From assembly GCA_012719085.1 (NCBI GenBank), contig JAAYBA010000425.1:1-32926 (forward strand): a DNA stretch of 32,926 bases, read 5' to 3'. The translations under genes were made by a program, and so were the position numbers. Below, one piece after another: positions 412-5,305 of the stretch. The notes below the pieces were generated by a model. The model ran no database searches. It saw only the letters and a list, made by a program, of their open reading frames with translations, and was not told the DNA's origin. The stretch is from Planctomycetota bacterium (GTDB lineage Bacteria > Planctomycetota > Phycisphaerae > Sedimentisphaerales > Anaerobacaceae). Numbering within the stretch: position 1 is the stretch's first letter; every line of letters starts with the position of its first letter.

Positions 412-1518
412 TCAGGCACCCTCCGAGGCCCCGAATACCCGGACAGTGTTTTTACCGGATTGCTTGGCGTTGTAGAGGGCGCGGTCGGACCGGCTGGTAA
501 TATCCTCTGGATTGGCGTCGGCACCATACTGGCCTACGCCAACGCTGATCGAAAGCGGCACCTGAACACTTTGCCAGGTCACCGACGAGGCGGCAACCGC
601 CTCCACGATGCGACGAGAAACCACAATGGCTTCGTCCAACGACGTGTTCGGCAGAATGACGCTAAACTCATCGCCTCCGTATCGCGCTGCCAGGTCGATC
701 AGGCGGATGCACTCCTTGATCCTGCGGCTGATTTCCCGGATCACCTTGTCGCCGGCCCGGTGGCCGTAGGTGTCGTTGATGGCCTTGAGATTGTCGATGT
801 CGGCCATGATCATGGAAATCGTGCCGCCGTACCGACGCGAGCGCCACAACTCACGTTCCAGGGTCTCGTAGAATGTCTTGTGGTTCATCAGGCCGGTCAG
901 ACCGTCGAGCGTGGCTTGGCGTTGCATCTTCTCAAACAGCTTGATATTCCCGATCGAAGCCCCGATCAACTGCCCCAGCAATTCAATCAGTGAGATATCT
1001 TCCTGTGTAAAGGCAGCCGGCTCGGCCTTGTCGGCCAGATTGAGCACGCCAACCACCCCGTCGTGACAGATCAGGGGAACGATCGCACAGTTGCCGGTCA
1101 TGTAGTTCTCGGCAAAGGCGCGCTGAGACCGTTTGATGACCGGCTTGTTGTACGTATCGATGTCGCTCGTCAGAATCAGCTCCTTGCTCTTGACCGCCAC
1201 GACCATCGGAGACGGCGGGGTCTGATTCAGCGACACGATCTTGTTGATGGGAAACGGATGATTGCATCGCACCAGATGCAGGATGTGGTTCGGTTCATCC
1301 AGGGCATAGAGTGACGCGAAGGTCGATCCGACGAGCGCGGGGATCTTCGTGACGCAGACATCCGCGATTCGATCGATGTCCAGGCTGTTGATCTGGCGGG
1401 CCAGAGGTGTGACCCGTTCCAACAGCGACATCGGACGCGCGGGGCCGGCCTCGTGTCTGTTTGGTTCGGCGATTCGTTTCGTCATGGCAAAGACATCAAC
1501 CTGATTTCCATCGACCAT
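412..1518 (-). CDS. GAF-GGDEF diguanylate cyclase
   Basis: GAF-like N-terminal half; GGDEF domain with YGGDEF active site and RLID (RxxD I-site) exactly 5 residues upstream. Confidence 0.92.
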   Translation of the reverse strand: MVDGNQVDVFAMTKRIAEPNRHEAGPARPMSLLERVTPLARQINSLDIDRIADVCVTKIPALVGSTFASLYALDEPNHILHLVRCNHPFPINKIVSLNQTPPSPMVVAVKSKELILTSDIDTYNKPVIKRSQRAFAENYMTGNCAIVPLICHDGVVGVLNLADKAEPAAFTQEDISLIELLGQLIGASIGNIKLFEKMQRQATLDGLTGLMNHKTFYETLERELWRSRRYGGTISMIMADIDNLKAINDTYGHRAGDKVIREISRRIKECIRLIDLAARYGGDEFSVILPNTSLDEAIVVSRRIVEAVAASSVTWQSVQVPLSISVGVGQYGADANPEDITSRSDRALYNAKQSGKNTVRVFGASEGA

Positions 1519-2104: not shown

Positions 2105-2485
2105 ATGAGTTGGGACAAAACGAGTCACAGGCTACAAGTACCAGCCAAACGCTATCGCATCGGCGAACTGGTGCGATGCAGTCCCTTCTCCCGGCAGACG
2201 ATTCACAACTACACGATCATGGGACTCATCCGCGAAGCGGAGTGGACCGAGGGGGGGCACCGACTGTACGACGAATCCGTCTTTGATCGCCTTTCCCGGA
2301 TCATGGAACTGCGAGAGAACATGAGTCTGGGCGAGATCCGTCGCATATTGAATGAAGAAGACAGAAAGGGCAAAGGGTTGCGTGGGGACAGCCCCGGCGG
2401 GCCTCGGCACGTCGAACGTGCTGCTGGGACCAATGAGAATCCCCTGTCATCGGGAGGAGGCTTCATGTCGCCCGAGGCAACGTAG
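2105..2485 (+). CDS. MerR-family transcriptional regulator
   Basis: RYRIGELVRCSPFSRQTIHNYTIMGLIREAEWTEGGHRLYDESVFDRLSRI is a typical MerR HTH/wing. ATG at 2105 is preferred over the longer ORF starting at 2006. Confidence 0.85.
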   Translation: MSWDKTSHRLQVPAKRYRIGELVRCSPFSRQTIHNYTIMGLIREAEWTEGGHRLYDESVFDRLSRIMELRENMSLGEIRRILNEEDRKGKGLRGDSPGGPRHVERAAGTNENPLSSGGGFMSPEAT

Positions 2486-2553: not shown

Positions 2554-2775
2554 CGTAAAGGAAAACCGAAAGGATCAAGGATGAGACAAACGGTTTCAGT
2601 GCGAGTGATACAGTTCAATGGCCTCCCTGTCCTTGCATGCGGATTCACCGCGACGGCAATACCCGAGTTTTCCCCCATCGGCCTGTGGTGTATGGAATCC
2701 CCGCGCTTCGCCGGCAATGCATCGTTTCGCTCTGACGTTCGGATCGCGTGAGATCGTCCTGCAGAAGGAGTGCCT

Positions 2776-3267
2776 ATGGACCTGTTGTCTCCTATCCCCG
2801 ACAATCTGACCGAGCTCTTGATGAAGATCATCCGCTTCACGGAACTTCGGCGCGACGTGCTGTATCGCAACATGCACAACACGCGGACGCCGGGGTTCAT
2901 ACCGCAGGACATGCCCGTGTTGGAGTTCGTCGGCGTGCTCAACGGCGCGATTGCCGAACATCTGCAAAGCCGTCGTCTGCTGTTCTGCGACACCGAGAAC
3001 ATCCGGTTCGGCCCCAACAGCACGATGGAGGTCCGACCGCAACCCGACCCGGATGCCCAAGCCCTGCTCGAACGCAACCGCGATGAGTATCTTCAGTTGC
3101 AGGTCAACAAGCTCCTCGAAAACTCCCTGAACCGCAAGATTGCCAAGGAGCTGCTGACGCTCAAGTGCGGCGCCCCGCTGGGTGTGGGTCGCCTGTCCAT
3201 TGCGGAAACCACCGCTCACGACGGACTTCTCGATGATCTGTCGAGCCCCGACGAAACCACGGACTGA
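2776..3267 (+). CDS. FlgB-like flagellar rod protein (divergent)
   Basis: N-terminal RFTELRRDVLYRNMHNTRTPGFIPQDMPVLEF resembles FlgB 'NIANADTPGYKARDxxF'; C-terminal LQLQVNKLLENSLNRKIAKELL resembles 'VDLExEMxKLAENxLRYQ'. Good SD (AGAAGGAG) before ATG 2776. Confidence 0.6.
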   Translation: MDLLSPIPDNLTELLMKIIRFTELRRDVLYRNMHNTRTPGFIPQDMPVLEFVGVLNGAIAEHLQSRRLLFCDTENIRFGPNSTMEVRPQPDPDAQALLERNRDEYLQLQVNKLLENSLNRKIAKELLTLKCGAPLGVGRLSIAETTAHDGLLDDLSSPDETTD

Positions 3268-3290
3268 ACCAGAGGCTTGTGCCCGCAACC

Positions 3291-4136
3291 ATGGGAAACC
3301 ACGCAGTCAATCTGCAACAGGCATCCGGCGGCGGCCGACCGGCGGCGCGCGTGCTCGCCGTCACCAGCGGCAAGGGCGGCGTCGGCAAGACGAACATCGC
3401 CACCAACCTGGCATTGTGCATGGCCGCCACGGAGAAACGCGTGCTTCTGCTCGACGCCGATATCTCGCTGGGCAATCTGGATCTGCTGTTGAACGTGCGA
3501 AGCAAGTACAACATCTCGCACGTGATCAACGGCTCCAAGCGGATTGAGCAGATCATCCTGCCCGGACCACAGGGCCTTCAAGTGATTTGCGGGGCTTCCG
3601 GTCTGGACCAACTGGCCGACATCAGCGAAACGGAGCAGCATCGGCTGCTTGAACACCTCTCCGGCCTGCAATACGGCAGTGACACCATTGTGATCGATAC
3701 GGCAGCGGGGATCTCGAACTCGGTCGTCAGTTTCTGTCTTGCCGCCGATCATGTGCTCGTGGTCACGACGCCCGAGGCCACCGCCATGACCGACGCCTAT
3801 GGGATGATCAAGGTCTTGGTCCGAAAACGCTATGAAGGCCCGATAAGCGTGGTGGTCAACATGGCGCACAGTCTGGCCGAAGGAAAGAGAATCTATCAGC
3901 GTCTGGCCGACGTCGCGGCCCGATTTCTTCAGGCCGACCTCTATTACGCCGGGGTCTTGCTCAAGGACGAACGCCTCTGTGCGGCCGTACGCTTGCGCCA
4001 GCCCGTCGTATTGGCCTATCCCAAGAGCCAGATCGCCTCTTCGTTCAACGCCTTGGCGACCCGCCTGGGGGGAATCGATTGCAGTAACCGGGGCAATGGG
4101 AGTTTTTTCCGGAGAGTGTTTCGGTGGCTGACCTAA
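3291..4136 (+). CDS. flhG: FlhG/YlxH-type MinD-like ATPase
   Basis: Deviant Walker A VTSGKGGVGKTNIATNLA, LLLDADISLGNLDLLL, VIDTAAGIS. An alternative GTG start lies at 3279. Sits next to a FliA-type sigma gene. Confidence 0.8.
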   Translation: MGNHAVNLQQASGGGRPAARVLAVTSGKGGVGKTNIATNLALCMAATEKRVLLLDADISLGNLDLLLNVRSKYNISHVINGSKRIEQIILPGPQGLQVICGASGLDQLADISETEQHRLLEHLSGLQYGSDTIVIDTAAGISNSVVSFCLAADHVLVVTTPEATAMTDAYGMIKVLVRKRYEGPISVVVNMAHSLAEGKRIYQRLADVAARFLQADLYYAGVLLKDERLCAAVRLRQPVVLAYPKSQIASSFNALATRLGGIDCSNRGNGSFFRRVFRWLT

Positions 4137-4160
4137 AGTCTTGGCCCAGGCGGCCGATAA
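4134..4160 (+). promoter_or_regulatory. Candidate sigma-28 (FliA) promoter TAAAGTCT-N11-GCCGATAA
   Basis: TAAAGTCT 4134-4141, 11-nt spacer, GCCGATAA 4153-4160. One mismatch to the FliA consensus TAAAGTTT-N11-GCCGATAA. Overlaps the stop codon of the upstream gene. Confidence 0.65.
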
Positions 4161-4261
4161 AGGATCTTGTGGGCATCGCTCTGTCCGAAGCAGGATCGTG
4201 AGCGGGCAAGACCGGCATCGCACAAAATGGATTGGGCTGCGGCACGTAACGGAGACGACTT

Positions 4262-5059
4262 GTGAAGACACAGACAGCGGCGAAGACGGACAAGAAGCTC
4301 GCAATCGATGAAGTATGGGAGCGTTTCCACGACAGTCGCCAGGACTGCTACCGCAACCTGCTCATGGAGCATTATCGGGACCTTGTCCGGCACGCCGCCG
4401 AGCGACTCCACAGTAAACTCCCGGACAAAGTCGAGATGGACGACCTGGTCAGTGCCGGCACGTTCGGTCTGATGGACGCCATCGACGCATACGACCCCGC
4501 GCGGGGCGTGAAGTTCGAGACCTATTGCGCTCCGCGAATCAAGGGATCGATCCTCGACGAATTGCGCAGCATGGACTGGGTCCCCCGCCTGGTGCGTGCC
4601 CGCGCCCATCAGTTGGCCAAAGCCACCCACGCCCTGGAGATGCACCTGGGTCGCAAGCCCGACGAACATGAGCTGGCCGAGGAGTTGAACATGGACATGG
4701 ATGAGTTCATTCGCCTCCAGCGCGACGCCAATGCCACCAGCCTCGTCTCCCTGAGCACCAAGTGCGGCGACGGGGATGGAGAGAGGGACGTCTGTGAGAT
4801 CGATGTCATCAAGGACAATCGCAGCGAGGACCCGCTCATCGAGGCCCAGAAACGCGACTTGAAGAGCCTTCTGACCAAGGGCCTGACTCGCGCCGAGCGG
4901 CTGATCATCGTGCTGTATTACTACGAAGAGATGACGATGAAGGAAATCGGCGCGACGCTGGATCTGTCCGAGTCGCGGGTTTCTCAGATGCACTCATCGA
5001 TCCTCGCCCGACTCAAGGCCCAGATGAACACCCGCAAGAAGGAATTCGCCGTCGAGTAG
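4262..5059 (+). CDS. fliA: RNA polymerase sigma factor, FliA/WhiG type
   Basis: DDLVSAGTFGLMDAIDAYDPARGVKFETYCAPRIKGSILDELRSMDWVPRLVR and C-terminal region 4 (YYYEEMTMKEIGATLDLSESRVSQMHSSIL). GTG start. Confidence 0.93.
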   Translation: MKTQTAAKTDKKLAIDEVWERFHDSRQDCYRNLLMEHYRDLVRHAAERLHSKLPDKVEMDDLVSAGTFGLMDAIDAYDPARGVKFETYCAPRIKGSILDELRSMDWVPRLVRARAHQLAKATHALEMHLGRKPDEHELAEELNMDMDEFIRLQRDANATSLVSLSTKCGDGDGERDVCEIDVIKDNRSEDPLIEAQKRDLKSLLTKGLTRAERLIIVLYYYEEMTMKEIGATLDLSESRVSQMHSSILARLKAQMNTRKKEFAVE

Positions 5060-5220: not shown

Positions 5221-5305
5221 TGCCCGGGACTGGATTCGAACCAGCACGAGCCGAAGCTCACTAGCCCCTCAAGCTAGCGCGTCTGCCAAATTCCGCCACC
5301 CGGGC
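5221..5305 (-). tRNA. tRNA-Leu (anticodon GAG)
   Basis: Minus strand GCCCGGGTGGCGGAATTTGGCAGACGCGCTAGCTTGAGGGGCTAGTGAGCTTCGGCTCGTGCTGGTTCGAATCCAGTCCCGGGCA: acceptor stem, long variable arm, GGTTCGAATCC T arm, anticodon loop TTGAGGG. CCA not encoded. Confidence 0.95.

Follow-up and report, generated by a model that had tools for sequence, protein, structure and literature searches.

In the analysed window, a stretch of 32,926 nucleotides from a planctomycete genome, a gene for a FliA/WhiG-family sigma factor (4262-5059, plus strand; GTG start, 265 aa) follows an flhG/minD-like ATPase gene (3279-4136, plus strand), and a motif resembling a sigma-28 promoter begins in the stop codon of the latter. 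This arrangement raises the questions whether the sigma gene possesses a promoter of its own, which sigma factor reads it and what it serves in these bacteria. According to our sequence comparisons the motif at 4134-4160 is very probably a real promoter. We further regard it as probable that it represents a sigma-28-type promoter from which the gene at 4262-5059 is transcribed, and that its most likely reader is the product of that gene, a sigma factor partly uncoupled from flagella.

The site and its gene neighbourhood

FliA (sigma-28) promoters of enteric bacteria, with the consensus TAAAGTTT-n11-GCCGATAA (PMC2859248), were used for comparison. Read directly from the plus strand, the 27 bases at 4134-4160 comprise a -35 octamer TAAAGTCT (4134-4141), a spacer TGGCCCAGGCG (4142-4152) and a -10 octamer GCCGATAA (4153-4160). 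The -35 octamer agrees with TAAAGTTT in 7/8 bases and the -10 octamer with the consensus in 8/8, while the spacing is exactly the 11 bases of the consensus, so that the original prediction of a near-consensus site deviating in one base holds. It had also proposed that the first TAA of the -35 element doubles as the stop codon of the upstream gene; the flhG-like reading frame, with the C-terminus FFRRVFRWLT, indeed terminates with TAA at 4134-4136. Transcription of the sigma gene, the presumed transcription unit of this promoter, is predicted to start at 4166-4168 given the usual distance between -10 and +1. About 101 bases separate the end of the -10 octamer from the GTG start codon, and the leader includes a likely ribosome-binding site GGAG (4251-4254) inside a conserved block AACGGAG. 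A comparison of the leader with Rfam matched no family. Downstream of the sigma gene, a tRNA gene was detected on the minus strand (5221-5305; Rfam tRNA).

Upstream, the window holds a gene for a GGDEF protein (412-1518, minus strand; RYGGDEF read in the sequence), divergent from a MerR-family regulator gene (2105-2485, plus strand; start codon uncertain), and a divergent FlgB-like gene (2770-3267, plus strand). The protein predicted from the latter had no Pfam or NCBIfam match by itself at E 0.001; its orthologues match FlgB models with a best value of 6.4e-10, the window protein with 0.019. The divergently oriented GGDEF gene stays together with the MerR, FlgB-like, flhG and sigma genes in the families f1, f2 and f7; a link of the cluster to c-di-GMP is possible. 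The FlgB-like gene, related to a flagellar rod protein, is retained in relatives without flagella. Family f5 has the orthologous sigma and flhG genes in the order flhA-flhF-flhG-fliA (flhF being named by position and sequence), which suggests that the flhG/sigma pair of the window is the original flagellar pair, relocated beside the MerR and FlgB-like genes.

Conservation with and without the upstream gene

Orthologues of the window sigma factor (E<=1e-70) were found in 77/89 genomes of the family, the close relatives being metagenome-assembled planctomycetes of the Phycisphaerae/Sedimentisphaerales. The sigma factor is missing from the flagellated genomes G008, G014, G028 and G030, possibly due to incomplete assembly, and these were excluded from the argument. 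Upstream regions from 90 loci, 77 within the family and 13 outside, were scored for the 12-base core TAAAGT-N15-CGATAA at exact spacing. The core was present with at most one mismatch in 72/77 family orthologues (~93%) and in 74/90 of all loci, counts in which the mostly metagenome-assembled and related sequences are not independent; the second-best place in the same upstream stretches usually had 4 mismatches. Both elements are nearly invariant in the 74 sites, with column counts of T74, A68/T6, A74, A73, G74 and T70 in the -35 and C74, G74, A74, T73, A74 and A72 in the -10, and conservation is much lower downstream of the -10. Similarly, when five relatives are aligned, including four from the genus of the window, both core elements are invariant, in contrast to a variable spacer and a largely variable leader. 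No recognisable site was found upstream of the sigma gene in the family orthologues G012, G013, G019, G023 and G073, nor in most loci sampled from other families of the order. The conservation in orthologous loci called for by the original prediction is thus evident and strong in the family. Its proposal that the site could permit expression of the sigma gene independently of the genes before it is likewise supported.

The repeated natural loss of flhG amounts to a clean deletion experiment on the bases that the promoter requires. In 35/77 family loci, flagellated genomes included, the gene has disappeared or decayed from its place between the FlgB-like gene and the sigma gene, and an intact orthologue occupies this position in 41/77. 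Where flhG is intact the site was found in 40/41 loci, and in 38/40 of these flhG terminates at the first TAA of the -35. Among the 35 loci in which flhG is absent or degraded and the FlgB-like gene is still present, 31 keep the site, so its conservation is no by-product of the flhG stop; many of these sites still have the final codons of flhG (ggttcttc) in front of them. The second base of the -35 was A in 40/40 loci with intact flhG and T in 6/31 without (Fisher p=0.005), a link that comes from two lineages only, genus g13 and one g28 genome. All six sites with TTAAGT in place of TAAAGT belong to loci without intact flhG. This pattern fits a constraint by the stop codon at that base, as embedding of the -35 in the flhG stop would explain why no base other than A occurs there in loci with an intact flhG.

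Conservation of the spacer may indicate selection beyond the two octamers. In most genera it reads TCGGCCAAAAG, and TTATCGGCC pairs with GGYCGATAA as an imperfect inverted repeat that includes the -10 (4138-4160 in the window). The mean folding energy of the sites was -5.8 kcal/mol compared with -2.6 kcal/mol for spacer shuffles, a bias not shown by the flagellin sites described below. In-register covariation at the variable pairs was nil, and in the genus of the window the repeat is short or shifted. An RNA hairpin or operator was accordingly kept only as a lead, given this strong folding bias but zero covariation. As a separate feature, the sigma leaders of about 23 relatives (e.g. L014, L020, L024) carry a conserved TATAGGAC roughly 55-85 bases past the -10 and CACGGAGG before the start codon; the two GGA motifs in these leaders might point to CsrA-type control. 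The window itself was found to lack this feature.

The sigma factor, its relatives and the visible regulon

The window sigma factor scored 252.6 bits against TIGR02479, above the cut-off of 189.6, and a Pfam scan identified sigma-70 regions 2, 3 and 4. According to a phmmer search against the PDB its nearest structures are WhiG 6pfv and FliA 6pmi. The genome holding the window (G000; 4.5 Mb) encodes a second FliA-family sigma factor directly behind flhA (C385:12675-13505, L109), which shares about 36% identity with the window sigma factor and has no such site nearby.

FlhA, FliP and flagellin are all missing from nine relatives (G010, G013, G016, G020, G024, G033, G035, G043 and G047), most of which are >90% complete, G033 and G024 reaching 68% and 74%, respectively. 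A window-type sigma factor was nonetheless detected in all nine, with an identity of about 68-83%. A dedicated flagellar FliA should co-occur with flagellar genes, which the window-type sigma factor does not do in these relatives. The flagellar role implied by the original prediction needs correction in that the window sigma factor cannot simply be equated with the flagellar one, considering both the second FliA-family sigma factor behind flhA and the window-type sigma factor kept in relatives without flagella. The exact core lies upstream of the sigma gene in the aflagellate G010, G016, G020, G024, G033 and G035, and the second sigma class (E about 1e-27 to 1e-35) was not among the matches listed for G010, G013, G016, G020, G024, G035, G043 and G047. 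In G010, G016, G020, G024 and G035, which combine the exact core with no listed second sigma factor, the obvious candidate to read the site is the sigma factor encoded behind it. G000 encodes a FlgM-like protein that scores above the PF04316 cut-off, as do the aflagellate G010, G013, G016 and G020. The FlgM-like gene of G000 (C400:798-896, L333) and its orthologues (L335-L338) have a conserved C-terminal half in common.

In the window the site alone matched the consensus with up to three mismatches, shuffles giving an expectation of 0.07. A genome-wide search for TAAAGYYT-N11-GCCGATAA with up to two mismatches recovered the site and one match with two mismatches, compared with 6 matches for the reversed pattern; the site is the single close consensus match in the genome. 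The exact pattern TNAAGT-N15-CGATAA occurs twice in G000, at the window site and upstream of flagellin, where it reads TTAAGTCC-N11-GACGATAA (C178:9199-9225, L084). Among the flagellar genes, flagellin alone has such an exact site. In the relatives, flagellin genes are preceded by T(T/C)AAGT-N11-xxCGATAA, mostly at about 130-165 bases from the ATG, which indicates that sigma-28-type promoters exist in these bacteria. This element heads most flagellin genes of the order; the long flagellins of family f5 are without it. TAAAGT and TTAAGT were considered as two sigma specificities and rejected as such, given that the sigma gene itself has TTAAGT in loci that lost flhG, and the flagellin gene of G017 has TAAAGT.

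A search for additional regulon targets was unsuccessful. Sites with up to one mismatch were at background in G000 (15 versus 18 for the reversed pattern), and in the sister genome G004 a flagellar cluster of ~100 kb contained none apart from that of flagellin. In genus g16 (G020, which is aflagellate, G062 and G063) one-mismatch sites were likewise not commoner than in the control, and the sigma gene carries the sole exact site common to all three genomes. None of the candidate FlgM-like genes examined possesses the site. The enrichment at motility genes that the original prediction would require is thus not seen in any simple form: exact cores in G000 are confined to flagellin and the sigma gene itself, and the G004 cluster offers nothing beyond the flagellin site. 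A visible regulon that is almost empty is odd and counts against a self-promoter.

Who reads the site, and known systems compared

A chance match riding on the constrained stop codon, which supplies three of the 16 bases free, is practically negligible as an explanation: the orthologue data refute it, the site being present in 72/77 orthologues and also where flhG is gone, and a mis-spaced N14 control pattern had no match at the sigma gene. We consider it improbable that the element is mainly an operator, bound for instance by MerR, or a 3' structure of the flhG mRNA with only secondary likeness to a promoter. The conserved spacer, the folding energy unlike that of flagellin sites and the MerR gene close by in loci reaching far enough speak for such a function, but variable pairs lack compensatory changes, the repeat is short or shifted in the genus of the window, and TAAAGT is nearly invariant yet largely outside the repeat. 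Moreover, an operator or hairpin is compatible with a promoter and both could coexist.

In flagellated relatives, which have two FliA-family sigma factors, either could read the site. The sigma factor behind flhA might accordingly be the reader, placing the window sigma factor downstream in a flagellar cascade rather than making it self-activating. Such cascades are common, both sigma factors are FliA-like and the flagellin site shares the -10 core and the spacing; this scenario nevertheless seems unlikely since relatives that have neither FlhA, FliP, flagellin nor a listed second sigma factor still carry the exact site, and since the flhA-linked sigma gene of G000 has no such site nearby. Self-recognition is the simplest reading, from which we infer that positive autoregulation of the sigma gene is likely. 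The product of 4262-5059 would read the site, and self-activation would add to read-through from the upstream MerR, FlgB-like and flhG genes. The sigma factor presumably descended from a flagellar FliA, became partly uncoupled from flagella in this family and survives in aflagellate relatives, often alongside a FlgM-like protein and with the self-promoter still in place. It is conceivable, if rather doubtful, that the former flagellar sigma factor and the FlgM-like and FlgB-like proteins form a self-activating switch tied to MerR and c-di-GMP that operates without flagellum or export apparatus. If such a module works without flagellar export, the question arises how an unsecretable FlgM-type anti-sigma factor is relieved, and which genes the sigma factor controls in these uncultured planctomycetes. 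A self-promoter outliving both the upstream gene and the flagellum would mark the sigma factor as still used for something else.

Autoregulation of fliA is established in enteric bacteria. Their FliA promoters and the planctomycete site have both octamers and the 11-base spacing in common, whereas here exact sites are confined to the sigma gene and flagellin, the -35 is fused with the codon that terminates the preceding flhG-like gene and the sigma gene lies outside the flagellar gene cluster.

In Streptomyces and Rubrobacter, WhiG is a FliA-clade sigma factor co-opted away from flagella and controlled by the RsiG-c-di-GMP-WhiG switch (PMC8325347). It uses the same promoter type as the window site and provides the nearest solved structures to the window sigma factor; its switch involves c-di-GMP, and here a GGDEF gene adjoins the cluster. 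The window sigma factor is, however, below the cut-off of the NCBIfam WhiG equivalog NF004935 (258.2 versus 343 bits), and whereas WhiG is paired with RsiG, several of the planctomycete genomes examined contain a FlgM-like protein.

Chlamydia trachomatis belongs to the same superphylum as these planctomycetes. Its sigma-28 regulon is limited to two genes, hctB and tsp (PMC10597470), and this small regulon can be likened to the planctomycete case, although its targets and the developmental cycle are not applicable here, where the site that can be seen belongs to the sigma gene. Comparable co-option is hence already known from WhiG (PMC8325347) and from the chlamydial sigma-28 (PMC10597470), and what is new is the setting, in which the self-promoter is retained after loss of flhG and the flagellum.
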